Below, piece by piece: positions 1-34,527 of a stretch of DNA of 39,673 nt. Position numbers and translations under genes: made by a program. The notes under the pieces are model-generated. The model was not told where the DNA came from. It worked only from the letters and a program-made list of their open reading frames with translations, and ran no database searches. Source of the DNA: Candidatus Bathyarchaeota archaeon (lineage in GTDB: Archaea > Thermoproteota > Bathyarchaeia > Bathyarchaeales > Bathycorpusculaceae); assembly GCA_029879735.1 (NCBI GenBank), contig JAOUPS010000006.1:1-39673 (forward strand), read 5' to 3'. Position 1 is the stretch's first letter. Each line of letters begins with the position of its first letter.

Positions 1-64
1 TTTGGTTTCGTGACTCTCAACTTCCGTGACAGTTCCTTTTTTAGAGATTAAAGCAATGTTGCAT
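1..64 (-). CDS. 5' end of a second winged-helix regulator paralogue (partial, off left edge)
   Basis: The first ~50 bases closely match, on the minus strand, the 5' end of the complete regulator gene at 2300-2938. The reading is LKKELSRKLRVTKP here and LKKEASWKLRATKP there. The ATG at 64-62 that matches the annotated ATG of the complete gene runs into TAA after seven codons, because this copy lacks one base in the A/T-rich stretch before the lysines. A TATA-like element (about 66-78) also lies almost on that ATG, so transcription should begin downstream of it. The real start is probably the TTG at 20-18, or a later codon beyond the edge. Whether the rest of the gene is intact cannot be seen. 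Confidence 0.5.
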
Positions 65-160
65 AAATATTTTTTATCAGTAAGCATCTTTATATTGTGT
101 AAAAAAGGTATACCAATGGAATCAGATAAATCGATATAAAGGAATTAACAGTGAGCTGCA
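65..160. promoter_or_regulatory. Divergent promoter region, copy 1
   Basis: For the plus strand, a TATA-like element CTTTATATTG at 88-97 predicts a transcript start near 118-125, with the leader ORF starting at 161. For the minus strand an AT-rich TATA-like element lies at about 66-78. The same layout and much of the same sequence recur at 2940-3033, so regulator, promoter, leader ORF and antiporter were duplicated as one unit. A weak Shine-Dalgarno (GTGAG at 151-155) precedes the leader ORF. Confidence 0.5.
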
Positions 161-220: not shown

Positions 221-223
221 TTT

Positions 224-2275
224 TTGTTGCTTCCGTATGCACCCTGGCTTTGCTGGCTCATCCCAATAGTTGGGGCTATACTTACGCCGCTCTTTGCCCT
301 AGCGCGTCGTAATCTTAGAGACTATGCCCCAGTCGCATTTGTCGGGACTAGCGTCATTTTTTCATTATCTATGATACCAGATGTTCATGCGGGGAATTTT
401 ATCAGCTGGGAGATTCCATGGGTCCCTTCTCTCGGCATAAATCTAGGAGTTCTCATGGATCCTTTAAGCGTACTCATGGTCAGTGTAGTCAGTGGCATAG
501 GGCTCATGGTCCTAATCTTCTCTTTAGAATACATGCGTGGAGATGCGGGCTTGACTAGATACTGGTTTTTCACTCAGCTCTTCATTGGTGGATTGATTAT
601 GGTGGTTATGGCGGGCAATCTACTTCAGCTGTACATCGGTTGGGAAGTCGTCGGCGTATGCTGTTATGCCTTGGTCACTTACTGGCACAGGAATCCAGAA
701 AACGCTCGTTATGGCTTAAAGACATTCTTGATTCTTCGTGTGGGCGACCTTTCTCTCTTACTTTCAATCCTAATCATTTACTTTAATTGCGGGACCTTTA
801 ACTTCTTAGGTATAAATATAGCGAAGTTGTCGGGATCTGGCTTTTTGCTCATCACCTTTTTTCTATATTTTGGTGGAGCTGTGGCAAAGTCGGCTCAATT
901 TCCCTTCCACGTGTGGCTGCCAGACGCGATGGTTGCCACGCCTGCATCGTTTAACGCCATCACGGAGGTGTTAGCAGGGGTGTATTTGATAGCTAGGATT
1001 TTTCCAATATTACATGCAGCTGAAGGGTATGGAGAGTTAACCATCTTCTTCTTTGCAGTCGCATGGGTCGGTGCATTCACCGCCTTATTTGGAGCGAGCA
1101 TGGCTATGGTTCAGAAGAACCTTGTGAGGCTTTTGGCGTATTCTATCATTGGTCAATACGCCTATATGATGGTGGCTTTTGGAGTAAGCGGACTGGCGAC
1201 TGATCCAGCTGCTGGATATCTGGCAGGCATTTTCCATAAGATGGCGGATGCCATAATATCTGGACTCCTCTTCCTATCTGCGGCAGCGATCTTGCATAGG
1301 ATTCGGTCTCAAGACGTGTTTGACATGGGTGGGCTTAAGGTTCGCATGCCCATTACATTTGTGTGTATGCTTATTGGAGCTCTTGCCACCATTGGTATAC
1401 CGCCTTTGAGCGGCTTTTGGAGTGAAGAGGCAATTTATGGTGCGACCTGGGAGCTTGCACAAGAGGCAGGGAGGCTAGGTGAGTCTGCCTTAATGTTTTC
1501 CGCTTATGGGCTATTCTTTTTTCTGATGGTCACTGCGGCAGTCACAGCTTTTTACATTGTACGTATGATGGGTATGGTCTTTGATCGAGAAAGCAAGCAT
1601 GTAGAGAAGATAGAGGACCAGAGAGAACTCATTAACGAAGTTTCACCTATGATGTGGGTTCCGATGGTAATTTTAGCCTCAGCCACCATTGTTATAGGAG
1701 TGTTTGCGCCGTTTATCATCACAAGTTTTCATGAGTTCTTCTCACCTCCTCCTTTATACCAAAGCATGGTTTACAAGGAAGTCATCGATATTCTGAGACG
1801 GGTGTTTCTCTCACCAAGTTCTGGAATAACCTATGCAGCATTGGCAATCGGCGGCTATCCAGCATATCGGCTATATATAACCCGTCAAGCTGACCCTGTT
1901 AAGTTAACAAAAGAACACCATTTCTTAGGGAAGGTTCATGATTTTCTTTGGAACCGATGTTACATTGACACTCTTTACCATAAGGTTGCAGAAGGAACCA
2001 CAGCGTTTTCCAACATCGTACATAAACGCTTAGAACTCAGCATCGACGCACTAAACTACACCGTTGCAAACTTCTTTAGAAAGTCGTCTAACATTACGTA
2101 TGAATGCATAGAGCTCAGGATCGACGCACTAAACTATTTCATAGCTAACCAGTATACATCATTTTGTCAACGTTTCAGAAAGATTCAGACAGGACTGCTG
2201 TCCTACAATATGTTAATGGTTTCTATTGGTGCCGCGTTACTAATAGTTCTACTGTTTCTATTTGGAATACAATAG
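224..2275 (+). CDS. Orphan NuoL/FpoL-type antiporter subunit, paralogue 1
   Basis: This 683-residue polytopic membrane protein has the NuoL/MrpA proton-antiporter fold (Proton_antipo_M family), including a NuoL-like C-terminal lateral-helix extension. NuoL length is usually 600-680. TTG start at 224 is coupled to the leader ORF. Retained: the helix-5 Glu (GWEVVG) and helix-7 Lys (AKSAQFP). Lost relative to E. coli NuoL: the helix-8 His (ALIHAATMV becomes NAITEV), the second central His and Lys (HxxxHxxxK becomes HKMADAIIS, so His to Asp and Lys to Ser), and the helix-12 Lys-Asp (FSKD becomes WSEE). It therefore resembles an antiporter whose hydrophilic axis has been made acidic. The C-terminal extension has an internal ~26-residue repeat (the 17 bp at 2042-2058 recur at 2120-2136). 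No other membrane-arm genes adjoin it. It may join the hydrogenase-like complex as an alternative module or serve a separate FrhB-linked complex. Confidence 0.85.
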   Translation: MLLPYAPWLCWLIPIVGAILTPLFALARRNLRDYAPVAFVGTSVIFSLSMIPDVHAGNFISWEIPWVPSLGINLGVLMDPLSVLMVSVVSGIGLMVLIFSLEYMRGDAGLTRYWFFTQLFIGGLIMVVMAGNLLQLYIGWEVVGVCCYALVTYWHRNPENARYGLKTFLILRVGDLSLLLSILIIYFNCGTFNFLGINIAKLSGSGFLLITFFLYFGGAVAKSAQFPFHVWLPDAMVATPASFNAITEVLAGVYLIARIFPILHAAEGYGELTIFFFAVAWVGAFTALFGASMAMVQKNLVRLLAYSIIGQYAYMMVAFGVSGLATDPAAGYLAGIFHKMADAIISGLLFLSAAAILHRIRSQDVFDMGGLKVRMPITFVCMLIGALATIGIPPLSGFWSEEAIYGATWELAQEAGRLGESALMFSAYGLFFFLMVTAAVTAFYIVRMMGMVFDRESKHVEKIEDQRELINEVSPMMWVPMVILASATIVIGVFAPFIITSFHEFFSPPPLYQSMVYKEVIDILRRVFLSPSSGITYAALAIGGYPAYRLYITRQADPVKLTKEHHFLGKVHDFLWNRCYIDTLYHKVAEGTTAFSNIVHKRLELSIDALNYTVANFFRKSSNITYECIELRIDALNYFIANQYTSFCQRFRKIQTGLLSYNMLMVSIGAALLIVLLFLFGIQ

Positions 2276-2285
2276 AGCTTTAGGA

Positions 2286-2297
2286 AGCGCGCGCGCT
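2286..2297. repeat. AGCGCGCGCGCT palindrome between convergent genes
   Basis: A perfect 12-bp alternating purine-pyrimidine palindrome fills the 24-bp gap between the antiporter stop (2275) and the convergent regulator stop (2300). Similar CG-alternating tracts recur in many gaps of this window. It could mark transcript ends or a structured or Z-prone site. No function is demonstrated. Confidence 0.5.
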
Positions 2298-2299
2298 AC

Positions 2300-2938
2300 T
2301 CATCGCTTCTTGACTTTCCTTTTGTTTTCGAACAGACTGCGCCACTCTTTTTGTTCGGTGAGCTTGGCAACAGCTTCACTGTATATTTTTACTCTAAAAG
2401 ACTCTGGGTCTTTTGGGGACTCGTCATTTAGATGTTTTTGCGCGACTTCTTTTAGTTGTTTTAGCAATGCTGATGCCAGTTTTTCGAGTTTCTCTGAGGA
2501 AACCTCGGATATGTGCTGGTAGAGCCTGAAGACGATGAACATACCCCTTAAATGTTCTATCTGCGTTTGTATGAAAAACCTTTTGACATCTTTTGGTATG
2601 TTATCAGTATCGATAATGAACATAGCAGCCACAGGAGCGTAGTATTTCTGGATGATGCCGTGCTCTTCTGCTTCTAACCTGGTTATTTCGATGAGTCCCG
2701 CCTTTAACAGGAGATGTAAGTGGTAACCGACGGCTGCCTTTGTTATACCTAACTCGTCGGAGAGTTGTTTCTCCGTCATAGAGTGTCTATTCAATAGACG
2801 TATGATCTCTGCTCTAGTAAAATCCGCTAATAATTGAATGGTTTCCTGATTTTCAACAATAAACACCGCGTTTTTTGGTTTCGTTGCTCTCAACTTCCAT
2901 GACGCTTCCTTTTTTAAAATATTACAACAATGGTACAT
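2300..2938 (-). CDS. Winged-helix (ArsR-like) transcriptional regulator
   Basis: Residues ~33-95 form a winged helix: TRAEIIRLLNRHSMTEKQLS, then the recognition segment ITKAAVGYHLHLLLKAGLIE, then a wing. A C-terminal half of ~110 residues of unknown role follows. This is the HTH_20/ArsR pattern of archaeal regulators that bind as dimers. The gene diverges from the leader ORF and second antiporter, so local regulation of that gene is the simplest inference. The reported ATG at 2938 is doubtful: a TATA-like element (about 2937-2950) overlaps it, and the paralogue at the window start is frameshifted just after the equivalent ATG. TTG at 2893 or GTG at 2866 are better candidates, giving 197 or 188 residues. 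It converges on the first antiporter with a 24-bp gap. Confidence 0.8.
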   Translation of the reverse strand: MYHCCNILKKEASWKLRATKPKNAVFIVENQETIQLLADFTRAEIIRLLNRHSMTEKQLSDELGITKAAVGYHLHLLLKAGLIEITRLEAEEHGIIQKYYAPVAAMFIIDTDNIPKDVKRFFIQTQIEHLRGMFIVFRLYQHISEVSSEKLEKLASALLKQLKEVAQKHLNDESPKDPESFRVKIYSEAVAKLTEQKEWRSLFENKRKVKKR

Positions 2939-2939
2939 A

Positions 2940-3033
2940 AATATTTTTTATCAGTAAGAATCTTTATATTGTATAAGGCTCTATACCGATAGGAATCGTT
3001 ATACCGATATAAAAGCATCAACTGTGAGTCACA
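2940..3033. promoter_or_regulatory. Divergent promoter region, copy 2, with direct repeats
   Basis: A TATA-like element CTTTATATTG at 2962-2971 faces right toward the leader ORF at 3034. An AT-rich TATA-like element at about 2937-2950 faces left toward the regulator. Two exact copies of TATACCGATA lie at 2982-2991 and 3000-3009, 18 bp apart and around the predicted start of the rightward transcript. This is a plausible repressor site for the divergent regulator. Copy 1 has only degenerate versions of these repeats. Confidence 0.5.
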
Positions 3034-3093
3034 ATGGTCTTCGAAGTGGTAATTGGAGTCTCCATTTTAATCGCTACGAACTTCTGGATGTGA
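3034..3093 (+). CDS. 19-residue leader peptide ORF, copy 2
   Basis: Every base is identical to the ORF at 161-220, so the 19-residue hydrophobic peptide is the same. Its end overlaps the GGATGTGA ribosome binding site for the TTG start at 3097. The identity runs from 3032 to 3140 (109 bp), into the antiporter coding sequence, while the rest of the two antiporter genes has clearly diverged. Confidence 0.5.
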   Translation: MVFEVVIGVSILIATNFWM

Positions 3094-3096
3094 TTT

Positions 3097-5136
3097 TTGT
3101 TGCTTCCGTATGCACCCTGGCTTTGCTGGCTCATCCCAATTATCGGATCTGGGCTTACGCCGCTCTTCGCCTTAGCACATCGCAAAATCCGAGATTATGT
3201 GCCAATAGTTTTCATTGTAGCTGCCGTCGTTTTTTCATTTTCTATGGTATCTGATGTTTTCATGGGAGAGGCAGTTAATTGGGTTAGCGGGGAAGTGATA
3301 GGCGGGTTGCCTCTCGATTGGCAGCTTCCATGGATCAGTTCTCTAGGCTTAGACGCAGGCGTGTTGGTTGATTTTCTGAGCGTACTTATGGTTTGTGTTG
3401 TTAGCAGTATTGGGCTTCTAGTTACGGTTTTCTCTGTGGAGTATATGCGAGGAAAACAGGGCTTGACTAGATACTGGGTGTTCCTGCAGCTTTTCATCGG
3501 TGGATTGGGCATGATAGTTATGTCAGACAACCTTCTTCAGCTTTTTATAGGCTGGGAAATTGTTGGATTAGCCTGTGTTGCATTGGTGACCTTTTGGCAT
3601 AAGGATTCTCACAAGGCTCGTTATGGTTTGAAAACGTTTATGATCCTTCGCATCGGAGACGTTCTTATGTTAGCGTCCATTCTAACAATGTATTTCTATA
3701 CTGGCACTTTTAATCTTGAGGGCATCGAAAGCAACATTGGCTGGATGTCAGAATTGCCAAGGATCGCTCTTATGACTGCTCTCATGTTGTTTGGCGGAGC
3801 CATAGCGAAGTCAGCTCAATTTCCTCTGCATGAGTGGTTGCCAGACGCTATGCCTTCTACACCAGCCTCGTTTAATGCGATTGTCGAGGTGCTGGCAGGA
3901 GTATATCTAGTGGCCAGAACTCTTCCAATATTTCAGCAGGGTTTGCCGAGTAGTTCTGGAGAATTAGCAATTTTCTTTCTAATCGTCGCATGGGTCGGCG
4001 GGTTTAGCGCGTTGTTAGGAGCGAGCTTGGCTATGGTTCAGAGAAGCATCGTAAGGGTTTTGGCATATTCTATTATGAGCCAGTACGCTTACATGATAGT
4101 GGGTCTAGGCGTAGGCGGTTTAATGACTGATCCGACATCTGGATATTTAGGAGGCATTTTCCATTTGATGGTGGACGCCATTGCATCTGGTCTGCTCTTC
4201 TTGTGTGCAGCTGCAATTTTGCATAGAGTTCGATCCGAAGACATGTTTGCTATGGGCGGACTTAGAGACCGCATGCCAATCACGTTTAAATGCATGATCA
4301 TTGGGGCTCTTGCTACGATTGGTATACCGCCGTTAAGCGGATTTTGGAGTGAGGAAACGATCTACAGTGCAATATTAGGGCTTGCACAAGAACTCGGCGG
4401 ACAAGGAAAGTTCACTTTAATGATTTCAGTCTACGGACTTTACTTCGTTATGATGGTTACTGCTGCGATCACCGCCTTTTATGTCATTCGTATGATGGGT
4501 GTGGTTTTCGGTCGAAAAAGCAAGCACATAAGGAAACTTGAACGTGAGGGATCGCCTATCAAGGAAGTTTCACTTCTAATGTGGGTTCCCATGGGGATTG
4601 CAGCGGTAGCTACAATAATGATAGGTGTGTTGGCGCCATTCGTCATCACGGGATTTCATGAGTTTCTCCCACCTCTCCTACACCAGAGAATGGTTCATGA
4701 GGGGGTTGTGGATGTTTTAAGAATGGCTTTTCTTTCGCCTAGTTTTGGAGTAGCCTGTGTTGTGTTGACAGTCGGAGGCTATCCTGCGTATCGGCTATAC
4801 GTAACTCGCCAAGTTCGGCCAACTAGGTTAACCGAGGAAAACGTATTTTTGAGGAGGATTCATGGTTTTCTTTGGAATCGATGCTATTTCAACTCGTTCA
4901 ACTACGCCGTTGCAAGCTTCTTCACAAAATTGTCTAACATCGCGTATGAATATATAGAGCGTAAGGGAATCGACGCATTTTACTATTTTCCAGCTCATCT
5001 TGTTACATCATTTGCTCGACGATTCAGAAAAACGCATACAGGAGTGCTATCTTACAACATGCTAGCAGGCTTTATCGGAGCCATAATATTAGTAGTTTTA
5101 CTGCTTCTAATTGGAGAGGTGCAATATCTCTTCTAA
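3097..5136 (+). CDS. Orphan NuoL/FpoL-type antiporter subunit, paralogue 2
   Basis: This 679-residue membrane protein is a tandem paralogue of the 224-2275 product. The N-terminal ~15 residues are identical and the rest is clearly diverged. It shares the same substitutions: helix-7 Lys kept (AKSAQFP), helix-8 His lost (NAIVEV), HxxxHxxxK changed to HLMVDAIAS, and helix-12 Lys-Asp changed to Glu-Glu (WSEE). Sharing these across two diverged copies argues for a functional family and against random decay. It has an N-proximal insertion near residue 55 (GEAVNWVSGEVIGGLP) and lacks one of the two C-terminal repeats of paralogue 1. TTG start, coupled to the leader ORF. Likely an ion-translocating or conformational-coupling membrane subunit. 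Its partner complex is unknown, though FrhB-type genes lie downstream. Confidence 0.85.
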   Translation: MLLPYAPWLCWLIPIIGSGLTPLFALAHRKIRDYVPIVFIVAAVVFSFSMVSDVFMGEAVNWVSGEVIGGLPLDWQLPWISSLGLDAGVLVDFLSVLMVCVVSSIGLLVTVFSVEYMRGKQGLTRYWVFLQLFIGGLGMIVMSDNLLQLFIGWEIVGLACVALVTFWHKDSHKARYGLKTFMILRIGDVLMLASILTMYFYTGTFNLEGIESNIGWMSELPRIALMTALMLFGGAIAKSAQFPLHEWLPDAMPSTPASFNAIVEVLAGVYLVARTLPIFQQGLPSSSGELAIFFLIVAWVGGFSALLGASLAMVQRSIVRVLAYSIMSQYAYMIVGLGVGGLMTDPTSGYLGGIFHLMVDAIASGLLFLCAAAILHRVRSEDMFAMGGLRDRMPITFKCMIIGALATIGIPPLSGFWSEETIYSAILGLAQELGGQGKFTLMISVYGLYFVMMVTAAITAFYVIRMMGVVFGRKSKHIRKLEREGSPIKEVSLLMWVPMGIAAVATIMIGVLAPFVITGFHEFLPPLLHQRMVHEGVVDVLRMAFLSPSFGVACVVLTVGGYPAYRLYVTRQVRPTRLTEENVFLRRIHGFLWNRCYFNSFNYAVASFFTKLSNIAYEYIERKGIDAFYYFPAHLVTSFARRFRKTHTGVLSYNMLAGFIGAIILVVLLLLIGEVQYLF

Positions 5137-5447: not shown

Positions 5448-6554
5448 GTGAATGAGTTGAGCGGAATCAAAGAAAAGTCGTTTAGTGACTTAATGAATGA
5501 AGTGGTTACTCCTGGGCTATGCACTGTTTGCGGTACATGTGTTGCTGCCTGTCCGTATAACGCGTTAATTCTTCGAGAAGAAAGCTTCAAACGTTTAGAA
5601 CTTTATGAGCTTGAGGTTACTCGTGACATTTACAAGTCTATCGAACATTTATGTGAGAAATGCGGCTTTTGCTACTATAATTGCCCAGAAATAATGTTCA
5701 ATCTTGAAAAAGCCGAGAAAGAAGAGTTTGGTACAGTGGCAAAAGACGAACTCGGCCACTTTCTAAAAGCGTATATGGCTCAAGCTACCGACAAGAAAAT
5801 TCTTAAGAACGCCCAGTGCGGAGGTGTAGCCACAGCTCTACTAAAATATACGCTTGAAAACAAACTAGTTAACGCTACGGTGGCAGTAACATCGACAGAA
5901 CATCCAGCATGGAAACCCAAACCCATGGTTATCACAGACCCCAAAAACTTATTGAAAGTTCAAAAAACGAAGTATACCCCGGCTGCAACAGTTATCGGTG
6001 TCAGCTCTGCATTGTACGAATGGGTTCGTTTCAGAATAGCAGTAGTGGCTACACCCTGTCAAGTCCGTGGAATGTGGACTACAAAAATCAGCCCAAAAGG
6101 ATACAGCAAAATATTCAACTCAATAAAACTGATAATCGGGCTTTTCTGCTACGGCACCTACCCGTACAACGATCTCTTCATAAAATTCCTAGCCAAAAAG
6201 CACGGCATCAACCCTTCGAGCGTCAATAAAATCGACCTGGACACAGAAAAAATCCGAGTATATGTAGACAATGAACTTGAACTGGAAGCTCATAGACGCC
6301 AACTACGCAAACATCTCCGAAAATCATGCAGACATTGCCGTGACTTTACAAACAGACTTGCAGATGTATCACTTGGAGGGGTAGGGTCGCCGGAGAAATG
6401 GACGACTGTGTTGATTAGAACTGAAAGAGGGAGAAAAATTTTCGAATATGCCGTAAAAGAACGATATATCAAAGCAAAACCACTTTCAGACGGAGGATTG
6501 AGAAAAATAAGAGAGTTGGCAAGATTAAAACTAAGCGAAGGGATCAGTGACTAG
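5448..6554 (+). CDS. FrhB/FpoF-like F420-dependent iron-sulfur flavoprotein
   Basis: N-terminal two-cluster ferredoxin domain: CTVCGTCVAACP near residue 25 and CEKCGFCYYNCP near residue 70. An FrhB domain follows (CGGVATALL near 125, then TPCQVRGM, then CRHCRDF with LADVSLGGVGSP). FrhB proteins bind FAD and exchange electrons between coenzyme F420 and ferredoxin-type clusters. Related members are the F420 entry subunits of Frh and Fpo and subunits of F420-dependent reductases. The GTG at 5448 overlaps the Shine-Dalgarno. TTG at 5457 lies five bases after GAGGTGA and is the better start, giving 365 residues. It follows the two orphan antiporters on the same strand and is a shorter homologue of the FrhB-CBS protein at 7633-9177. 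Partner and exact substrate are not determined. Confidence 0.85.
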   Translation: MNELSGIKEKSFSDLMNEVVTPGLCTVCGTCVAACPYNALILREESFKRLELYELEVTRDIYKSIEHLCEKCGFCYYNCPEIMFNLEKAEKEEFGTVAKDELGHFLKAYMAQATDKKILKNAQCGGVATALLKYTLENKLVNATVAVTSTEHPAWKPKPMVITDPKNLLKVQKTKYTPAATVIGVSSALYEWVRFRIAVVATPCQVRGMWTTKISPKGYSKIFNSIKLIIGLFCYGTYPYNDLFIKFLAKKHGINPSSVNKIDLDTEKIRVYVDNELELEAHRRQLRKHLRKSCRHCRDFTNRLADVSLGGVGSPEKWTTVLIRTERGRKIFEYAVKERYIKAKPLSDGGLRKIRELARLKLSEGISD

Positions 6555-7632: not shown

Positions 7633-9177
7633 TCAACATTGCCTTCCTATTCGCGCGCTTAGCGTATGCATCACGTCACTTCTTGTTAGAATGCCCAATA
7701 ATAAACGCGTATTCTTGTCATCTACAACAAGAAGTCTTCCAACATTGTGTTTGCTCATTCTTTTGAAAGCCTCAGCAACAGAGTTATCAGGAAACGCTAC
7801 GATTAAATCTTTAGTGCCAATTTCACCAACAGAAAGACTGTTTCGCTTCTCTTTAGCAACTTTCATTGCATCCTGCAAGGTAACAATTCCCACAATTGTA
7901 TTTGTTTCATTTACTATCGGGAAGCCGATGTGATGATGCTCAGCTATTTCGTCGAGAAGCTCATCAACTGTCATGTTTGGCGGCACGGCAATAACTTTTT
8001 TTGTCATAATTTCTCCTACTTTCACTTCCTCCAGCATGCTTATTTCGGTGGCTATAGTCTTGTAGACGAACTCTACTGCAGTAGGAACAGGAACACCTGC
8101 TTTTCTCATAGCCATAATTTCCTGTGAAGCGGCGTTTCTTTTATGAGCGGACAACTGGATTAGATGAGCTAAGGTTTCTGGTTCAGCCTCTATCTTCTTT
8201 GTTGTTATAACGCCTCCTTTGACAGCTCTATTGAAGAAAGTTTCACCTTTCTTAGTTCTGATAATGACTATAGACCAGTCTTTTAATGGGCTTGCTCCGC
8301 CAATGCTTAGGTCGGCAAGTTCAGAGGTAAAGTCCCCACAAGTTCTACAACTATTCATGATATGGGATTTGACTTCTGAAAGAGGAATTCGAACAACACG
8401 GTTTTCTGTAGTTACGACGTATTCATTCGCCGTCAAATCCACATTTTGAATCTCGTTAGCTGCAATCTTATGTTCATGCAGAAGATACTCCAATAATCGA
8501 CCCAGTGAGAAGGTCCAGAGGCAGAAAAGCCCTATCGTTATTTCGAGACTGTGCATCAGCTTGTGTTGCCAAGCTTCGAGTTTTCGAAGCGCCCGAATGT
8601 GACAGGGAATGCCGACGAAACCGATACGGACCTTACCGTGTTCAAAAACGGCACGACCGAAAGCCTCCGCCACGGCAGAGGGCACAATTTTAGCGTCCAC
8701 GGCGGAAAGCGTGTCGTCTGGCACGAGGCTTATTGAAGGCTTAACTTTTATGGGAAATCTCGGTGAGGCTTCTGAGATTATGGCGCTGTCAATTATTTTT
8801 TTGTTGATGGCAAAATTAAGAAGTGCGTTTACAACACCCCCGCTCTTACTGGCATCTCTTAAAGTAGGGTTAGTGGCATGGGCAAGCAAAATCTTTCTGT
8901 AATGACCCAGACTTTCTCTTCTATGAGGCGCGTCCGCAACACACCGTAATGTTTCAAACAAAAGCGCGTCGGTATGGGGACATATGTCATAGCAGATTGG
9001 GCAAGAATCCAGATGTTCAGAACAATCATGAAGCCTATGTGGTTTGTCGTGCTCTATCTTTATTGCATGAACTGGACAAGCAGCCTCACAAGCACCGCAC
9101 AAGGTGCAGAATTCGGGTTCTATTATCATGCGTTCGAGCTCGTTGAACGCTATGAGTTTGTTCTTCTCCTCTGGCAT
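7633..9177 (-). CDS. FrhB-like F420/ferredoxin oxidoreductase fused to a CBS pair
   Basis: 514 residues in three parts. Residues ~20-85 form a two-cluster ferredoxin domain (CTLCGACEAACP at 24-35, then CPICYDICP). Residues ~90-360 form an FrhB domain (SGGVVNALL, GIPCHIRAL, CRTCGDFTSELADLSIGG). Residues ~387-510 hold two CBS motifs (VGEIMTKK, GIVTLQDAM, VGEIGTKD, GILTRSDVM). FrhB proteins pass electrons between F420 and iron-sulfur clusters. CBS pairs usually bind adenine nucleotides and regulate. The fusion suggests that electron entry is gated by energy charge, which is inference. It lies directly after nuoN in the same direction with its own promoter and Shine-Dalgarno (AGGAAGGT), so it is a natural candidate for the input module of the neighbouring complex. 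FpoF, the comparable subunit of methanogen Fpo, lacks CBS domains. Confidence 0.88.
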   Translation of the reverse strand: MPEEKNKLIAFNELERMIIEPEFCTLCGACEAACPVHAIKIEHDKPHRLHDCSEHLDSCPICYDICPHTDALLFETLRCVADAPHRRESLGHYRKILLAHATNPTLRDASKSGGVVNALLNFAINKKIIDSAIISEASPRFPIKVKPSISLVPDDTLSAVDAKIVPSAVAEAFGRAVFEHGKVRIGFVGIPCHIRALRKLEAWQHKLMHSLEITIGLFCLWTFSLGRLLEYLLHEHKIAANEIQNVDLTANEYVVTTENRVVRIPLSEVKSHIMNSCRTCGDFTSELADLSIGGASPLKDWSIVIIRTKKGETFFNRAVKGGVITTKKIEAEPETLAHLIQLSAHKRNAASQEIMAMRKAGVPVPTAVEFVYKTIATEISMLEEVKVGEIMTKKVIAVPPNMTVDELLDEIAEHHHIGFPIVNETNTIVGIVTLQDAMKVAKEKRNSLSVGEIGTKDLIVAFPDNSVAEAFKRMSKHNVGRLLVVDDKNTRLLLGILTRSDVMHTLSARIGRQC

Positions 9178-9247: not shown

Positions 9248-10744
9248 CTATGGTATAAACGGGAGCTGCTGTATTACGGGCTCGATAAGGTTTAGAACGA
9301 TCGTGGGATAGACGCCCAAAATGATTATTGCAGCAACAAGAATGAAGATTGGAACAAGTAGCTTTTTCGGTTCTTTAATTTTAGTTTCTTCTTGTGGTGT
9401 TTTTGCGTACATATAGTTGATTAACCTTAGCAAGTATGCGGCTTGAATGATGCTGGTTAAGACGCCGATGACTGCTAGCCAGCTTAGATTTGCTTCTATT
9501 GCAGATGTGAAGACCAGGTATTTTGCGATGAAACCTGCAAGAGGTGGAACGCCTGCGAAGGAAAAGACGCCGAGAAGTAGAGCTAAACTTGTAAACGGCA
9601 TTCTTCTACCTACTCCCGAAAAGTCCTCTAAGGTTTCGAATCCCATGCGGTTTAAAATTCCCAATGCCATAAAGGAAAGTGCTGTGGTTATTCCTCCAAT
9701 TAGGAAGAAGTAGAGGTTGCCCATGATTCCAAGCGGTGTTACGCTGGTTATCGCTACAAGATTGTAACCGACATCTGCGATGCAAACATTTGCTATTAAA
9801 CGTTTCACGTTTTCTTGAGCTAACGCGAGCAAGTTGCCCACTATCATTGTTAACGCGGAGAAAACGGCGAGCATAACTGTCCACTCCAGAACTGTGGGCG
9901 GCGTCAAGATGTAGATGAGAACTCTCAGCAGAACGTAATAGCTTCCTTGGTCTATGAGTGCCGAAAGAAATGCTGAAGAGGACGCTGGTGCTGCTGTGTA
10001 AGCATCTGGAAGCCACATGTGAAACGGTACCACGGCAGCCTCGATAGCGTAGCCAGCTGCAATAAAAATGAAGGCGGTTACAAGTAGATGCTTGTCTTCT
10101 AAGGCTATCAAAGCTTGTTTTACTGCCCAGAAGTTAAGTGTACCAGTGATGCCGTAAACTATTGAAAGCCCGTAGACTATGAAGGCTGAGGCAATGATTA
10201 TCATAACTAGGTATTTTAATGTGGCATGTAGAGAACTGGGTGTTTTACGGTAGAGCATCAAGAAACTTGAGCCTGCTGCCGAGGCCTCCCAGAAAATGAA
10301 GAGGGTTAGGAGGTCGCCTGAGAAGGCGGTGCCTATTATGCAGCCGATAATTATCAGCATAACCGAGTAGTATCGTTCTGAAGGTCTTTCACTGAGATTA
10401 ATGTAGAAGATGCTGTACAGAAAAGTAACTGCGCCGACGATTGTGAAGATGATTGCCATGTAAATTGACATTGCGTCTATCATGAAAGTGCTTGAAAATA
10501 TAGCAAGCGGTTCGCTTGTTAAGGTTATGTTAAGGAATGGTTGAGGTGAGGGGTGTTCATAATATTTGATTGCTAAATTCGCTATAGGTATAGCCGCAAT
10601 AATGAAAACCGTTGAGAACCAACCAAGCGTGAGAACAGTTTTCATGCCTTTTCTTTTGCGCATAGCCTTAACTACTGGAATCGTTAAAAGCGAAAACAAG
10701 ACGAAACTAATTATCGGCAAAGAAACATCTAGAATTTCTATCAT
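9248..10744 (-). CDS. nuoN: Complex I-like antiporter subunit N
   Basis: A 498-residue polytopic membrane protein of the NuoN/FpoN antiporter family, normal in length. The fold signature VPFHMWLPDAYTAAPAS and the helix-5 FWEAS segment are present. By alignment with E. coli NuoN, helix-7 Lys217 is Glu (IEAAVVPFH) and helix-8 Lys247 is Asp (ALIDQGS). The helix-12 Lys is kept (FIAKYLV). Replacing basic by acidic residues along the proton path is unusual and is shared in spirit with the orphan NuoL paralogues. Last of the A-to-N operon, 12 bp after nuoM. ATG start. Confidence 0.9.
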   Translation of the reverse strand: MIEILDVSLPIISFVLFSLLTIPVVKAMRKRKGMKTVLTLGWFSTVFIIAAIPIANLAIKYYEHPSPQPFLNITLTSEPLAIFSSTFMIDAMSIYMAIIFTIVGAVTFLYSIFYINLSERPSERYYSVMLIIIGCIIGTAFSGDLLTLFIFWEASAAGSSFLMLYRKTPSSLHATLKYLVMIIIASAFIVYGLSIVYGITGTLNFWAVKQALIALEDKHLLVTAFIFIAAGYAIEAAVVPFHMWLPDAYTAAPASSSAFLSALIDQGSYYVLLRVLIYILTPPTVLEWTVMLAVFSALTMIVGNLLALAQENVKRLIANVCIADVGYNLVAITSVTPLGIMGNLYFFLIGGITTALSFMALGILNRMGFETLEDFSGVGRRMPFTSLALLLGVFSFAGVPPLAGFIAKYLVFTSAIEANLSWLAVIGVLTSIIQAAYLLRLINYMYAKTPQEETKIKEPKKLLVPIFILVAAIIILGVYPTIVLNLIEPVIQQLPFIP

Positions 10745-10756
10745 TGGCTTTCCTCA

Positions 10757-12256
10757 CTAAACAAAACTTACAGTGTTAATGAGATCAAGGAAGAATGCGG
10801 GCCATATTCCAAGAACTATGACAAACACCATCAAGATGGTCATTGCACACTTCATAAAAAACGGAGCATCTTTAGCTCTTTTGAGTTTCGTAGGTCCCAA
10901 AAAGATATGGCGTATATATCTTAAGGCGTAAGCGAGTGACAGAACAGTGGCTACTAGCATTAACGCTGTTGGCAGAAGGTAGAAACTGTCATTGTTGATT
11001 GTTTGGAAGGCTCCGACGAATATTAGAAATTCGCTGATGAAACAAGCGAATGGGGGTACGCCTCCGATGCTTAATGCTGATGTAGTTGAAGCTGTTGCGG
11101 TAACAGGCATCTGTCCAGCGAGTCCACCCATTTCGCGTATATCTCGGATTCCAAGCTGTTTCATAACGGCACCGGCTGACAAGAAGAGCAAGCCTTTGCT
11201 TACAGAGTGATTTACGAGATGCAGCACCGTCCCGGTCAGCGCTGTCCCGGTCACGGGTTCTTGGAAAGGAAAGAGGGAAAGCCCGAAAAGAACGTAGCCC
11301 ATGTGAGCTATACTTGAATATGCTATTACTCTTTTTATGTCATTTTCCACCAAAGCAATCAGAGACCCAAAGAACGCGGATATAACTCCGAACACTGCTA
11401 AACCGTGCAGAAATTGGTTTCCAAAATCAGTTGCAATGACGGCGACAGCGGGGAACACTGTTCCTAAAGACACTCGGAGTATCGCATAAGCGCCAGCCCC
11501 GATGATAACTCCGCTTAGAAGAGCAGACATTGGTGCAGGTGCCTCGGAGTGCGCATCCGGCAGCCACATGTGAACCGGAACAACAGCCATTTTCACGGCA
11601 AAACCTGCTGTAAGCGACAGCAAAATCCACTTGACAAGGTCGGGTTGGGCAGCCATCAACAGGTCTTGGGCCTGAAACATGTCTAAGTCGCCTGTAACCA
11701 TGAAGATGGCTCCTATGCCTAGAAGAACAAAGACGGCGCCTGCGTGAGTGAATATGAAAAACTTGAACGCTGCTCTATATGGTTCTTTGTAGCCCCATCC
11801 ACCAATTATGAAATACGATGGGACAAGCATTAGCTCCCAACAGAAGTAGAAAAGCATAAGATTTGACGTGATGAAAACGCCGACGAGACCTATAAACAGC
11901 AACGTCAAAAGCGCATAGTATTCAGCAAGTCCTTTCTTCTTCTGCATGTAATTGACTGAGAAAAGAGCAGCAACTAGAATAAGTATCAAAGTTATAATTG
12001 CCATGGACAAACTGATGCCGTCAACAAAAAGCGTAAAGGAAGAACCGAGAACAGGAATCCAATAATAGGACTCAACATATTTGTGCTCTGCGGATTCGAG
12101 AACGACGGGTACGGTTGTGGAAAGCAATGCGATGTCGGCTAGGGCGATTAAGGCAACCAGAATCGCGGCTGTCTTTGCAGATTTTTTCCCCGTCAAATAA
12201 ACAACTAGAACAGCTAATGTAGGCAAGAGTAATGTTAACAAGAGTATGTTTTGCAT
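10757..12256 (-). CDS. nuoM: Complex I-like antiporter subunit M
   Basis: 499 residues, NuoM/FpoM family: helix-5 CWELMLVPSY, helix-7 VKMAVVPVHMWLPDAHSEAP, the His/His/Lys helix (HLVNHSVSKGLLF) and the helix-12 Glu (FISEFL) are all present. The helix-8 Lys (E. coli Lys265) is Gly here (SGVIIGAGAYAIL). It should form one of the three antiporter-like modules of the membrane arm, moving protons or sodium ions in step with redox chemistry in the peripheral arm. Six bases separate it from nuoL, consistent with co-translation. ATG start. Confidence 0.92.
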   Translation of the reverse strand: MQNILLLTLLLPTLAVLVVYLTGKKSAKTAAILVALIALADIALLSTTVPVVLESAEHKYVESYYWIPVLGSSFTLFVDGISLSMAIITLILILVAALFSVNYMQKKKGLAEYYALLTLLFIGLVGVFITSNLMLFYFCWELMLVPSYFIIGGWGYKEPYRAAFKFFIFTHAGAVFVLLGIGAIFMVTGDLDMFQAQDLLMAAQPDLVKWILLSLTAGFAVKMAVVPVHMWLPDAHSEAPAPMSALLSGVIIGAGAYAILRVSLGTVFPAVAVIATDFGNQFLHGLAVFGVISAFFGSLIALVENDIKRVIAYSSIAHMGYVLFGLSLFPFQEPVTGTALTGTVLHLVNHSVSKGLLFLSAGAVMKQLGIRDIREMGGLAGQMPVTATASTTSALSIGGVPPFACFISEFLIFVGAFQTINNDSFYLLPTALMLVATVLSLAYALRYIRHIFLGPTKLKRAKDAPFFMKCAMTILMVFVIVLGIWPAFFLDLINTVSFV

Positions 12257-12262
12257 TTCATA

Positions 12263-14296
12263 TCACCTAAACATTGTGGCTATTATTAATATTAAGAGTA
12301 TTAAAAATCCGAGCAGAGCCGCCGCTATGAAATGCTGTAGGGAGCCAGAATATGTTTTCCTGAGTTTTGAGGCGGATAACAACGTTCTGTTTGCCGCGAT
12401 ATACAGTATTTCATCGACAAAAACGTCAAGGTACTCGCGAGTGCCATGAGCCAAACTTATCACTCCATTTGCGGTAAATTGGGGCAAACGGTTAAAGATC
12501 GCATTTTCAACGTGTTTGTGAGCACCATTAGCGATTCTAATGATTCCATGGGCAAAAAAGTAAGGTAAACGTCCAAAACCAGTTACTTCAATGCGTCGAA
12601 GACCTTTAGATATGCCGCCGAATCCCTTGACAATGACTTTTTCGTAGAAATCGTCGAAGAAGTAGCCATGCTCCAAAACCGTGTTCAAGGGAGCCAACAA
12701 AGTCCTTCTTGTCCTTTCTATTAACACGGATTTCCGGGAATAAGTGAGATACACGGGAAAGCCCCCCAAGAAAAGGACGATTAGGAAAATCAGGGTTGAG
12801 GAACTGTAAACCTCACTTAGCCCTATTTCCACGCTAACGTGCATAAACTTGGCAACTAAATTTCCAAGCAAACCCCAAGCGGCACATAGCACAGCGAGTA
12901 TGCCAGAGGAGAAGAGCATTATCTTTGGAGCTTCATGCAAATGAATTTTCTTCAAATAATCCGACTTCTCACGCAGGAAGGTAAGTATAATAGATCGCAG
13001 AGTGTAGGCAAACGTAACCGATGTGGCAGCATAAATTGTGAGCACTAGTAGAACATCTCCAGTCGACCAAAGACTACTTATAATGAGCCCTTTGCTGAAA
13101 AAACTTGCGAACGGAGGCACCCCGGTACGGGCAAACATAACGACTATACTGAGTCCAAACGTGATCGGCATTGCCTTCCGCAGTCCACCCATCAGTCGCA
13201 TGTCACGGGTTCCAAGCGTGTGAACGATGCCGCCTATTGCAAGGAAACCGAGTCCTTGGAAGAAGGCGTGGCTTAACATGTGAAACAAACCGGCAAACCA
13301 GCCTTGTGAAGAAGTAGGCGAGACGGCGCCTAATGCTGCCATCATGAATCCTATTTGGCTAATTGTTGAGTAAGCAGGCACTCCTTTTATGTCAGGCGTA
13401 TGCACCGCCAAGGTTGCCCCAACGAATGCGGTAATAGCGCCAATCCAAGCCACAGAAGGCAGCCACATAGGGATTGATAGTGCGAGCGGCCCGAACAATA
13501 TGAACAATCTAGCGATCAGGTAAACCCCTGCCTTCACCATGGTTGCCCCGTGCAAGAGAGCGCTAACCGAAGTCGGTGCCTCCATGGCACTGTACAACCA
13601 TGTGTGTAAGGGTAGCTGAGCTGATTTTGCAACTGCTCCACCAAGCATGAGAAAGGCAACAGCGGTTAAAGTTGGTAAAGGCACAGCTCCTATTTTGGCA
13701 ATTGTATCATGGAATGAAAATGTTCCCAAACTAGCGTAAAGAAGAGCAATCGCAGCTAAAAGGCAAACGTCGCCCACGCGGGTCATGAGGAAAACTTTGA
13801 TGCCTGCGCCAACAGATTCTGGGCGTTTGTACCAGAAAGAAACCAACGAATAAGAACAGAGTCCTACCATTTCCCAGAAAACAAACATCTGAAGAAAGTT
13901 ATCCGACATGACAAGTCCGATCATTGAACCAATGAAAAGAAGCATGAAAAAATAGTATCTGGCTAAGCCTTCTTCGCCCGCCATATAACCCAAAGAGTAA
14001 ATGATGATTATGAAACCGAAGAAAGCAATTAAATTCGCAAATAGAACGCTTAACGGGTCGATAAACACCCCTGCATTTATACCCAACGTAGAAATCCATG
14101 GCACGGTGGATTCTGGATTCGTTAAAGTGTCAAAGTAAACGTCAGGAACCATAGAAAACGCGAATACAGTAGCGGCTAAACTTACTATCACTGCAAAGCA
14201 GTCTCTTGCTTTTCCACCTAACCGCGCGACGAGTGGGACAAACAGGCTAGAAAGGGTTGGGATTACCCAAACAAGCCACGACGCATAAGGAAGCAA
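12263..14296 (-). CDS. nuoL: Complex I-like antiporter subunit L (canonical copy)
   Basis: 677 residues with a long C-terminal extension, as in NuoL/FpoL, where it forms the lateral helix along the membrane arm. It keeps helix-7 Lys (AKSAQLPLHTW), helix-8 His (ALLHGATMVKAGVYL), both central histidines (FHMLSHAFF) and helix-12 Lys (FFSKGLI). The Lys after the second His is Gln (FFQGLGF), and LPDAM is altered to LYSAM. It contrasts with the two orphan paralogues at 224 and 3097, which have lost most of these. The C-terminal region holds two ~27-residue repeats, starting LPYFFAHGIIRIANGAH and LPQFTANGVISLAHGTR. TTG start follows the nuoK stop directly. Confidence 0.92.
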   Translation of the reverse strand: MLPYASWLVWVIPTLSSLFVPLVARLGGKARDCFAVIVSLAATVFAFSMVPDVYFDTLTNPESTVPWISTLGINAGVFIDPLSVLFANLIAFFGFIIIIYSLGYMAGEEGLARYYFFMLLFIGSMIGLVMSDNFLQMFVFWEMVGLCSYSLVSFWYKRPESVGAGIKVFLMTRVGDVCLLAAIALLYASLGTFSFHDTIAKIGAVPLPTLTAVAFLMLGGAVAKSAQLPLHTWLYSAMEAPTSVSALLHGATMVKAGVYLIARLFILFGPLALSIPMWLPSVAWIGAITAFVGATLAVHTPDIKGVPAYSTISQIGFMMAALGAVSPTSSQGWFAGLFHMLSHAFFQGLGFLAIGGIVHTLGTRDMRLMGGLRKAMPITFGLSIVVMFARTGVPPFASFFSKGLIISSLWSTGDVLLVLTIYAATSVTFAYTLRSIILTFLREKSDYLKKIHLHEAPKIMLFSSGILAVLCAAWGLLGNLVAKFMHVSVEIGLSEVYSSSTLIFLIVLFLGGFPVYLTYSRKSVLIERTRRTLLAPLNTVLEHGYFFDDFYEKVIVKGFGGISKGLRRIEVTGFGRLPYFFAHGIIRIANGAHKHVENAIFNRLPQFTANGVISLAHGTREYLDVFVDEILYIAANRTLLSASKLRKTYSGSLQHFIAAALLGFLILLILIIATMFR

Positions 14297-14644
14297 CTAG
14301 ACAATGTCCTCCTTTATTTTGCTATCACTTTTTCCTTCACCTTCAATCGTTTCGTGCTGCTCTAACTTCGCTAATTTTCTGATGTCGCATGTTCCATATT
14401 TCTTAGAAGCTATGACCAATAAAGCCAATATGATACCAGTTACACAGGTGTCAGTGGAAAAGGCAAGGATCAAAAAAGCTTCGCCTAGTGCCTTGTTCAA
14501 TGAAGAGGCGAGCAACACGAAATTCATCGATGCTGCTGTTGCGATTAATTCAACCGATATTAACACTTTCAACAGGTGACGCTTGGTTAACAGACCGTAA
14601 ATACCAATTGCAAGCAATGTCATCGACAGAATTACGTAATCCAT
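14297..14644 (-). CDS. nuoK: Complex I-like subunit K
   Basis: The ATG at 14644 overlaps the nuoJ stop as TGATG and gives 115 residues, near the usual ~100. An upstream start at 14749 would lie inside nuoJ and is rejected. Three membrane helices are expected. The first conserved Glu (LISVELIATAASMN) is kept. The second (E. coli Glu72, in AAE-AAIG) reads TDT-CVTG here, so Glu is replaced by Thr with Asp beside it. A charged C-terminal tail of ~35 residues is extra. NuoK links the quinone-side module to the antiporters and resembles MrpC. Confidence 0.87.
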   Translation of the reverse strand: MDYVILSMTLLAIGIYGLLTKRHLLKVLISVELIATAASMNFVLLASSLNKALGEAFLILAFSTDTCVTGIILALLVIASKKYGTCDIRKLAKLEQHETIEGEGKSDSKIKEDIV

Positions 14645-15108
14645 CAGTTTTTTCCCTCCTTTTTTTCGTGCAGAACTATGGCAATGCCTAAAGCAACAGT
14701 CATTATCACTAAACCTTGTAAAACAACATCTATTGCTCTCAAGTTCCATAACGCTTCTGGAAACGAAACATCCGAAGAAACACTGGTTGGGATAGTTCTG
14801 ACTGAAAGAAAAATGGATGGGATCGACAAAAGTAACGCTGCTGCTATGGCTAGAAAAGCGTTTTTTAAAGGTTTTTTCCCACTCGGTTTTTCACTAAGCA
14901 TTTCACCTGACAGGAAAAGAACCGCCAATGTTCCTACACCTATAGCCAGCTGAAAAACAGCCACGAAAGTGGCATCGTTTAGAGCGTATAAAACCGCCGC
15001 CAAAATGAGTGTGCCTGTTAGAGAGGCAACTGAATAGACTGCGTCATCAAGATGGACTGCCAAAAAAGCCGAAACAATCAATCCTACTGCAAGCAATTCC
15101 AGAATCAT
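14644..15108 (-). CDS. nuoJ: Complex I-like subunit J
   Basis: 154 residues, about five membrane helices, NuoJ/FpoJ family (related to MrpA C-terminal/MrpB segments). ATG start directly follows the nuoI stop. Sequence cues are the N-terminal LELLAVGLIVSAFLAVHLDD, VAVFQLAIGVGTLAVLFLSG (NuoJ helix 3 with its pi-bulge region), and a final helix VVLQGLVIMTVALGIAIVL. It is part of the E-channel region joining the catalytic core to the antiporters. Typical energy-converting hydrogenases such as Ech do not have this subunit. Confidence 0.85.
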   Translation of the reverse strand: MILELLAVGLIVSAFLAVHLDDAVYSVASLTGTLILAAVLYALNDATFVAVFQLAIGVGTLAVLFLSGEMLSEKPSGKKPLKNAFLAIAAALLLSIPSIFLSVRTIPTSVSSDVSFPEALWNLRAIDVVLQGLVIMTVALGIAIVLHEKKEGKN

Positions 15109-15492
15109 TTACGCCTCACTCCTCTTTTGAAGATTTATCTGCGGTTTAACCACCAACTCGTGCTTATTCGTTGAGGCGAGTTCAAAAAACCCAGAAGTTT
15201 TAATAGCGTTTCTAGGACAGCTTTCAGCGCATTGATAACAGAAGATGCAAAGGTCAAGATGAAACAATGGTTTTTTCTTTCCTTCAACATCCACCATCTC
15301 GATGGCTTTCGCTGGACAATCTCTAGCGCACAAACCACAACCGATACAAAGGTCTATATCGAATATTTGCCTGCCACGGAAACCGTCAGGAACTTTCGGT
15401 TTGACCTCGGGATATTTTTGAGTGGCCGGTTTTCTGAAAATCTGAGAAAGCACCTCTTTCAACATCGGTGATAGCTTGATTTTTTTAGTCAT
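15109..15492 (-). CDS. nuoI: Complex I-like 2[4Fe-4S] subunit I
   Basis: The ATG at 15492 lies four bases after the nuoH stop and gives 127 residues. A start at 15543 would sit inside nuoH and is rejected. Two canonical ferredoxin motifs are present, CIGCGLCARDCP and CIFCYQCAESCP, each followed by a hydrophobic residue run. NuoI/EchF-type subunits pass electrons from the input side to the proximal cluster of subunit B. The N-terminus is shorter than bacterial NuoI and similar to archaeal and hydrogenase forms. Confidence 0.92.
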   Translation of the reverse strand: MTKKIKLSPMLKEVLSQIFRKPATQKYPEVKPKVPDGFRGRQIFDIDLCIGCGLCARDCPAKAIEMVDVEGKKKPLFHLDLCIFCYQCAESCPRNAIKTSGFFELASTNKHELVVKPQINLQKRSEA

Positions 15493-15496
15493 TTTG

Positions 15497-16477
15497 TCAC
15501 ACCACAAGTGGATTAAGCCAAAACGCCACTGCGACGGTCGCAACGAGAGATAGAATTGAGAGCGGTATTAGCATCCTCCAGTTTATGACCAGTACTTGGT
15601 CAATGCGCAATCTTGCGAATACGCATGTTAAATATTCCGTTATCATAACAACAAAGAGAACTTTAAGTATGAACCATAATGTGTACCAGAATGCTGGCAA
15701 GCCGAGAAACACTGGTCCATATGGACCACTTAAGAAGAGTTCAACTACGATAACTGCGCCCAAAACAATTTGCACATCTTTAGCTAGCTTAAGAAAAGCC
15801 AATCGGCGACCGCTATATTCAGTTTCGTAGCCGGCTACTATCTCCGTTTCGGCGTGGGGAACATCAAATGGGTCTTTCTCCAATTCTGCTTGAAGAGTGA
15901 TAATAAACAGCGCAAAAGCCCACGGAATCAAAAGAACAAATGGAACATTTTGACTAGCTGCTATCGTTGAAATGCTCAGGTCATTTGCGAGAAAAGCGGA
16001 GGTTAACGCGAAAATAAAAAGAGGTATGTCATAGCCGAGAAATTGTGTCAAAACTCTAGTGGCACCTATTGCGCTATAGGGGTTGGTTGAAGACCATCCG
16101 GAAAGAAAGAGGAAAAAGTTGGCAACTGATATTAAAGCCAGAACGAAAATCAAGTCACCCTCAAAACTTGAATGGGGAATCACGTTCGACCCATCGATGG
16201 GTAAGAAGAACAGAGCGAAAACGAAGATTGAGAAAGAAAGAATAGGCGCAAACCTGAAAACGACACTTTTTGTGTTGCTTGGAATAATGTCTTCCTTTGC
16301 TAACAACTTGACGAAATCAGCGAAAGGCTGTAGAATGCCTGCGGGACCAGTGTAGGTAGGGCCGATTCTATTCTGCATTCGCGCCTCTATTTTTCTTTCA
16401 ACCCAATCACAAAACATTGTGAATAACAGAATAAAAGTGAAACCTGGAAAGATTAACACACGAAAGATGAATGTCAA
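15497..16477 (-). CDS. nuoH: Complex I-like membrane anchor subunit H
   Basis: 326 residues, about eight helices, NuoH/FpoH/EchB family. Signature features are WVERKIEARMQNRIGP with GILQPFADFVKLLAKED, the SGWSSTNPYSAIGA segment, and DPFDVPHAETEIVAGYETEYSG, which carries the acidic cluster facing the catalytic subunits. H forms the quinone cavity in complex I and the corresponding docking site in hydrogenases. TTG start. It lies 25 bp after the catalytic CD gene. Confidence 0.92.
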   Translation of the reverse strand: MTFIFRVLIFPGFTFILLFTMFCDWVERKIEARMQNRIGPTYTGPAGILQPFADFVKLLAKEDIIPSNTKSVVFRFAPILSFSIFVFALFFLPIDGSNVIPHSSFEGDLIFVLALISVANFFLFLSGWSSTNPYSAIGATRVLTQFLGYDIPLFIFALTSAFLANDLSISTIAASQNVPFVLLIPWAFALFIITLQAELEKDPFDVPHAETEIVAGYETEYSGRRLAFLKLAKDVQIVLGAVIVVELFLSGPYGPVFLGLPAFWYTLWFILKVLFVVMITEYLTCVFARLRIDQVLVINWRMLIPLSILSLVATVAVAFWLNPLVV

Positions 16478-16502
16478 GTCTAAACTCGTTTTTTTAACCT
16501 CC

Positions 16503-18092: not shown

Positions 18093-18526
18093 TAGACTTT
18101 GCCTCCTTCGCTGGTTTAAGCAGTTTTACAATTCCGTCAATTATGGCTTCAGGTCTCGGTGGGCAGCCAGGAATATAAACGTCAACTGGAATAATTTTAT
18201 CTGCTCCTCCCAGCACGTTGTAGTTTCCCTCGAATACACCGCCTGAACAAGCACACGCGCCTATTGCTACGACAAACTTGGGCTCAGGCATCTGTTCACA
18301 AATACGTTTCAGTCTGTCTGCACATTGCCTAGTAACAGGACCTGTGACTAGCAAAACGTCAGCGTGTCTTGGCGATGGCTCAAGTAGTATTCCAAATCGT
18401 TCAATGTCGTATCTGGGTGTTAAGAGTGCGACAACTTCGATGTCGCATCCGTTGCATGCTCCAGAATTGAAATGAAGAATCCATGGTGACCTTTTTTTAG
18501 CCCAACTTACAAGACTAGCGCAACAC
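18079..18526 (-). CDS. nuoB: Complex I/hydrogenase small subunit B, apparent 5' frameshift
   Basis: The small catalytic subunit carries the proximal [4Fe-4S] cluster. An ATG-only reading gives just 91 residues, but the frame is clearly coding further upstream: SLVSWAKKRSPWILHFNSG, then ACNGCDIEVVALLTPRYDIE. The cysteines CNGC (CxxC), GACAC and PGCPP are present. CxxC is the hydrogenase form; complex I has adjacent cysteines. No ATG, GTG or TTG is in frame. A GTG at 18526-18524, with GGAGGAGG upstream, would start the protein as MLRSLVSWAKK if one base within 18515-18523 were extra; as given, it hits TAG after three codons. So either a one-base insertion (mutation or assembly error) or a rare start is involved. 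Starts one base after the nuoA stop. Confidence 0.85.
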
Positions 18527-18527
18527 G

Positions 18528-32827: not shown

Positions 32828-32853
32828 ATTCAAACGCACAGGAGACGACTCTT

Positions 32854-33603: not shown

Positions 33604-33634
33604 GCTAGCATCGTAGCGGGCGGAGGGAGTCAAC

Positions 33635-34522: not shown

Positions 34523-34527
34523 ACGTT

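Follow-up and report, generated by a model that had tools for sequence, protein, structure and literature searches.

The question raised by this locus is what an antiporter-like subunit of a complex I-type enzyme does when most of the residues that would carry protons through it have been replaced. The two genes concerned, here called La and Lb, stand in tandem in the window, by which we mean the whole 39,673-base stretch that was analyzed; it is the entire contig C90 of a metagenome-assembled genome (MAG) of a Candidatus Bathyarchaeota archaeon in 156 contigs, and MAG incompleteness limits the analysis. Both open reading frames (ORFs) are present where a first-pass annotation had placed them, with their frames intact, and both encode NuoL-like proteins. 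The PF00361 and PF00662 domains score above cut-off, and an AlphaFold2 model (predicted template modelling score, pTM, 0.84) has the NuoL fold with a C-terminal lateral helix and matches NuoL/NdhF chains in Foldseek with an E value of 1e-28, the lateral-helix part of the model being of low confidence. The Lb protein is 64% identical to La, and the nearest relative of La is a copy in another genome, G021, at 65-70% identity. We propose below that La and Lb may be regulated versions of a subunit that no longer pumps.

In alignment with E. coli NuoL, the residue numbers of which are used throughout, La and Lb retain Glu144, Asp178, and Lys229. The helix-8 His254 is eliminated by a net three-residue deletion, His338 and Lys342 of helix 11 are replaced by Asp and Ser, respectively, and Lys399-Asp400 of helix 12 has become Glu-Glu. 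Apart from Asp178 and the deletion that removes His254, these features had been read from the sequence in the first-pass annotation and are reproduced here; to them we add three losses (Lys305 to Val, Ser150 to Cys, and Thr312 to Ile) and one gain, helix-8 Met258 to Glu. Only Glu144 and Lys229 remain of the core proton-route set (Glu144, Lys229, His254, Lys305, Lys342, and Lys399). In the “histidine switch” described for E. coli complex I, His254, hydrogen-bonded to Ser150 or Thr312, connects Lys229, the uptake residue Lys305, and the release residue Lys342 (PMC13358369), and Lys229 is the sole part of this junction left in the clade to which La and Lb belong. AlphaFold2 models built from the same homologue set have helix 8 unbroken in the canonical L subunit encoded elsewhere in the window (244-272) and broken at the deletion in La (241-244, 247-249, 251-264), where the local confidence is moderate.

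The pattern extends well beyond the two tandem copies. Homologues were drawn from 257 Bathyarchaeia genomes by means of a profile of the paralogues, from a scan of named genomes, and from a phylum sample of 398 genomes. Among the matches listed, at least 22 sequences carry the helix-8 deletion and all are from Bathyarchaeia; outside Bathyarchaeia, the matches listed from the phylum sample and the named-genome scan are intact L subunits only. The 22 deletion-bearing sequences form a single clade in a tree of 88 L subunits (SH-aLRT, the Shimodaira-Hasegawa-like approximate likelihood ratio test, 100), with the deletion as one change on the tree. This clade has two branches, which we term type A (La, Lb, and the one G021 copy) and type C (19 sequences). 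A fourth type A gene, split across two contigs, is carried by genome G116, and each of the three genomes in which type A was found (that of the window, G021, and G116) has type C too. The cut-off of the NCBIfam model NDH_I_L (TIGR01974, 407.5 bits) is exceeded by the canonical L of the window (418.3 bits) and is not reached by La (374.7 bits), Lb (372 bits), or type C (296.6 bits).

All 22 members of the clade lack His254, Lys305, Lys342, Lys399, and Thr312, and Ser150 is lost in the 20 that are readable at this position. The clade retains Glu144 and Lys229; every member (22/22) has Glu at 258 and Asp at 338, and Ser at 342 and a helix-8 Asn are each found in 21 of the 22, while the new acids at 258 and 338 occur in none of the 67 readable intact L subunits. 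Besides La and Lb, 20 sequences from many genomes share the fixed core of the pattern, which none of the 68 other NuoL-like proteins in the comparison has; judged from these alignments, its sharing is far beyond chance. The Glu and Asp of helices 8 and 11 are clade-wide, but the helix-12 Glu-Glu is confined to the small type A branch, and type C has Thr/Ala/Cys/Ser-Asn there. His334 of helix 11 is kept in type A and lost in type C, and some ordinary L subunits, the canonical one of the window among them, do not have the helix-11 Lys either.

The ratio of nonsynonymous to synonymous substitution rates (dN/dS) is 0.16 between La and Lb (dS 1.4), 0.18 between La and the G021 copy, and 0.15-0.18 within type C, values by which the clade is under purifying selection and not decaying. 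Decay could be suspected from the small number of genomes carrying type A and from the fragment of a related L gene and the remnant of an ArsR unit that were observed. However, La and Lb are both full length, their key replacements are conserved, and we reject decay because of this conservation and the low dN/dS; that the two are functionless duplicates is, in our judgment, extremely improbable. Freely varying positions, or scattered and decaying copies, had been named in the first-pass annotation as outcomes that would tell against it. What was found instead are invariant key positions in one clade under purifying selection, which together support its suggestion of selection for an altered function.

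The 19 type C sequences are the L subunits of a second group-4 [NiFe]-hydrogenase-type complex. Their clusters also contain M, N, K, J, A, B, C, D, H, and I, and are complete or almost so in most genomes with a long enough contig. The L1 CxxC and L2 DPCxxC ligand motifs (RICGIC, DPCFSC/DPCFAC, and similar) are present in the large subunits of all 13 clusters in which D could be read. In ten type C genomes, PF00361 matches (E≤1e-10) are confined to the three antiporters of the cluster. The point of comparison is Hfo, the Fpo-like 11-subunit [NiFe] hydrogenase of Bathyarchaeia assigned to subgroup 4g, as described by Loh et al. (2021; PMC7886697), who in the passages drawn on here make no mention of antiporter residues. 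From the 51% identity to the Hfo large subunit and that description, we infer that type C is also of subgroup 4g. The two are alike in subunit set, archaeal class, and a large subunit with both CxxC motifs, but type C differs in its degenerate L, its intact M, another gene order, and a J that is often split. A literature search by title and abstract returned no report of degenerate antiporters in subgroup 4g or of a NuoL duplication in Bathyarchaeia.

In the genome of the window, the type C cluster, the L of which we call Lc, is on contig C128. Over its first 127 bases, C128 is identical to the reverse complement of window bases 1-127. Both stretches lie at the very ends of their contigs, and because such an exact terminal overlap is the mark of adjoining contigs in a k-mer assembly, we take the two contigs to be neighbors; the other end of C128 matches no other contig. 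In the joined order, Lc and La are divergent and about 490 bases apart, and La, a gene for an ArsR-family regulator, Lb, and the gene FrhB1 are flanked by two complete complex I-like clusters. The description of La and Lb as orphans with no K, J, M, or N neighbors is therefore to be abandoned: a ten-gene cluster with its own canonical L lies on the opposite strand of the window (Table 1), the left end of the window borders on a second complete one, and most members of the clade are the L subunits of complete hydrogenase-type clusters. In G021, type A lies 6.6 kb upstream of type C and canonical Hfo is absent, and because of this arrangement we associate type A with type C and not with Hfo. The ten-gene cluster of the window is of the Hfo kind (PMC7886697): because its large subunit carries both [NiFe]-hydrogenase CxxC motifs, the cluster resembles Hfo rather than a quinone enzyme.

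A four-residue core set, comprising the helix-5 Glu, the helix-7 Lys, a helix-8 Lys or His, and a helix-12 Lys/Glu, was scored in L, M, and N of all available clusters. In type C, M has all four residues in 14 of the 15 clusters scored, whereas L lacks the set and N almost always does too; the combination of degenerate L, intact M, and degenerate N is found in all 12 clusters in which D can be read and L, M, and N are each present. In canonical Hfo, that of the window included, it is L that is intact, M is without the helix-8 Lys, and N has Glu for the helix-7 Lys. In Asgard relatives M is degenerate, and in Methanomethylicota all three antiporters are altered. None of the 29 hydrogenase-type clusters with at least three antiporters keeps every core residue, and 24 have exactly one intact antiporter, compared with 12 of 20 quinone-type clusters of that size that keep all (a further 2/20 have one unreadable position); the Hfo of G035 was scored apart because only one of its two motifs was found. 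Some bacterial M subunits are likewise without the helix-7 Lys. We regard the single intact antiporter of hydrogenase-type clusters as a pattern in these sequences, not a law.

We now put forward a mechanism that, in our estimate, has somewhat better than even chances of being correct, in which La and Lb would be duplicated type A L subunits with a dismantled proton route and such a non-pumping distal subunit would lower the ion/electron ratio of the complex. Specifically, L would retain its structural role, with the distal module, the lateral helix, and the Glu144-Lys229 contact, and would no longer move protons, the work being done by M, such that the complex would run on approximately one translocation site where three would be expected. 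By established thermodynamics, the redox energy that a hydrogenase gains per electron pair is small, so fewer pump sites make sense, and over the small redox span between ferredoxin and H2 a one-site arm would be better suited than one with three pumps. La and Lb would then be alternative or extra L isoforms of the type C complex, probably regulated, with ArsR-type proteins as the switch. The ArsR-family protein encoded between them is a probable regulator of the L copies, and in G021 the gene immediately upstream of the type C L encodes a 65% homologue of it. Among the new functions first suggested for the pair (another ion, a locked non-pumping spacer, or a distinct coupling partner), the spacer fits best because another subunit of the same complex keeps the core residues.

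Several points weigh against this proposal. Loss of residues is no proof of lost ion movement, and the new acids, being invariant, may point to a path that is altered and not abolished. The linkage of La and Lb to the type C complex comes from phylogeny and gene neighborhood only, and the adjacency of C128 and C90 is deduced from a single perfect overlap of 127 bases at their ends. The type A L of G116 has an M of its own behind it, which could mean a separate complex. The contrast between hydrogenase-type and quinone-type clusters is not absolute, in that 6 of the 20 quinone-type clusters also miss at least one core residue, and the survey counts are not phylogenetically independent, kinship being confounded with complex type.

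If the path is changed, it may be that another ion is moved, with the helix-8 Glu and helix-11 Asp, joined in type A by the helix-12 Glu-Glu, forming a site for Na+ or K+. Neutral loss alone does not explain why both acids are present throughout the clade and absent from the readable intact L subunits, and a Na+/H+ exchanger gene adjoins the type A L in G021. Nevertheless, with the exception of Lys229, the lysines and histidines of the Mrp/NuoL route are mostly gone, and type C is also without His334 of helix 11 and without charge at helix 12, such that we consider a cation site unlikely. It is still harder to see La and Lb as additional modules of the adjacent canonical Hfo, which would then have five antiporter-like subunits in total. 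They are indeed only 4.1 kb from that cluster, its L has a long lateral-helix segment (115 aa), and extra subunits accompanied by 26-aa lateral-helix insertions have a precedent (PMC9040806). However, G008 and G006 have an equally long lateral helix and three antiporters only, type A occurs in G021 in the absence of canonical Hfo, and La and Lb are sister to type C and not to the L of Hfo. We are similarly doubtful that the type A L combines with separate M- and N-like subunits in a stand-alone Mrp-like antiporter or a third complex, to which an M-like gene directly after the type A L in G116, and extra M' and N' genes between the type A and type C L genes in G021, could point. No extra M or N accompanies La and Lb in the window genome, and the small Mrp subunits of the MrpA-G set were not recognized beside them. 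A broader version of our proposal, in which Bathyarchaeia hydrogenases would set the ion/electron ratio by silencing differing antiporters (only L or only M being kept) and regulated pump-dead isoforms would be swapped in, changing the gearing or binding another cation, is offered as a tentative possibility.

The clade shares with NuoL/ND5 and MrpA the fold, the Pfam domains, and the Glu144-Lys229 pair, but differs from them in the loss of the His254 switch, Lys305, Lys342, Lys399, Ser150, and Thr312 and in the fixed acids of helices 8 and 11. The HycC subunit of E. coli formate hydrogenlyase (FHL) is another antiporter-like subunit of a [NiFe] hydrogenase that misses core residues: its helix-7 Lys is Leu, the N-side path is interrupted, and Ser stands at the position of His254 (PMC9474812). 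HycC keeps the helix-11 His/His/Lys and the helix-8 Lys and loses the helix-7 Lys, which is the reverse of the clade, and FHL has one antiporter subunit where type C-type complexes have three. The 2M complex I of Nitrospira and Complex_I_3 of Manganitrophaceae, which contain extra pumping subunits (PMC9040806), resemble the clade complexes in that the number of antiporter modules varies and the lateral helix has 26-aa insertions. However, they add subunits with presumed pumping, whereas the clade complexes keep the modules minus core residues, and in the latter the length of the lateral helix is no guide to the number of subunits.

In L subunits, the lateral-helix segment is built of helical repeats, with lengths of about 36, 62, 89, 115, and 140 aa among 88 sequences (59 in E. 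coli) and a best period of 26.8 aa (resultant 0.87); in La the segment comprises residues ~576-662 (window ~1949-2209). As a ruler of antiporter number the lateral helix was rejected, since three-antiporter type C clusters range from 88 to 149 aa, and two-antiporter clusters (36 aa) are the sole fit. The latter are the Hfo-type clusters of G046 and G016 (L046:7650-10936 and L047:825-4077), which have only two antiporters, both core-intact, and the shortest lateral helix. A further hydrogenase-type cluster, in G012 and G048 (L188 and L215), has two divergent antiporter-like proteins, one with Asp for the helix-7 Lys and the other of 657-659 aa.

Table 1. Positions in the window of La, Lb, their altered helices, and neighboring features.
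Feature	Position	Strand	Description	Evidence
ArsR-promoter unit remnant	1..130	-	upstream of La; bases 1-127 overlap the start of C128	
La	224..2275	+	type A degenerate NuoL-like subunit, 683 aa	PF00361 (E 3.3e-58), clade membership
La helix 8	947..973	+	net 3-aa deletion, His254 gone; gained: Asn244 (953-955) and invariant Glu248 (965-967)	
La helix 11	1235..1261	+	His334 kept (1235-1237), His338 to Asp (1247-1249), Lys342 to Ser (1259-1261)	
La helix 12	1424..1429	+	Lys399-Asp400 to Glu-Glu	
ArsR-family helix-turn-helix regulator	2300..2938	-	divergent from Lb	PF01022
Lb	3097..5136	+	second type A degenerate NuoL-like subunit, 679 aa	PF00361 (E 1.1e-57)
Lb helix 8	3874..3888	+	Asn260 and Glu264, deletion as in La	
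Lb helix 11	4162..4188	+	His356 kept, Asp360, Ser364	
Lb helix 12	4351..4356	+	Glu-Glu	
FrhB1	5448..6554	+	F420-binding FrhB/FpoF-type protein	PF04432/PF04422
FrhB-CBS fusion	7633..9177	-	beside the canonical complex	
Canonical Fpo-like [NiFe] hydrogenase (Hfo) cluster	9248..18878	-	complete, 10 genes, N-M-L-K-J-I-H-CD-B-A	
Canonical L of Hfo cluster	12263-14296	-	core residues kept	

Aligned 5' ends suggest that La probably starts with the TTG at 227 and not at 224. La and Lb have nearly the same DNA over their first 16 codons and a short leader ORF (MVFEVVIGVSILIATNFWM) (45/48; window 150-270 and 3023-3143), in contrast to the gene-wide dS of 1.4, and Lc shares the coding part (44/48), which may reflect either gene conversion or constraint on the translation start. 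In G021, the Na+/H+ exchanger gene (PF00999; L040:7771-8834) is divided between two ORFs, and farther upstream there is a short remnant of a NuoL N terminus (L040:6094-6169). FrhB1 is present in 3 of the 257 genomes at E≤1e-90, with close orthologues in two others only: that of G116 is 84% identical and divergent from the type A L, and that of G019 adjoins a gene that by eye reads like hypE. An FrhB-CBS-like gene adjoins the type C L in G041, G060, and G119. Within the canonical Hfo cluster, N (9248-10744) has Glu for the helix-7 Lys and is also without the helix-8 Lys, changes that recur in every related Hfo cluster whose N could be read, and the large subunit (16503-18092) stops exactly after DPCFSCTDR, the C-terminal tail of type C large subunits being missing. 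The NuoB-like ORF (18079-18480) has no usual start codon ahead of its ACNGCD motif, the open frame extending upstream of the first ATG/GTG/TTG, which points to either an unusual start or a wrong base. The right end of the window (32093-35694) carries Cdv/ESCRT-type genes (Snf7-like, CdvA-like, and Vps4-type AAA).

How many of its antiporter modules complex I uses for pumping is debated, as is whether the distal ND5/NuoL subunit is the only exit for protons. The essence of the clade described here is that nature has removed the distal histidine switch, together with its lysines, from an otherwise complete complex with a core-intact M. Pumping by the type C complex would mean that not every member of the superfamily releases protons through L alone; absence of pumping would make the arm a scaffold. 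Retention of an intact L only in some complexes and of an intact M only in others offers a testable link between redox span and the number of working pump sites.

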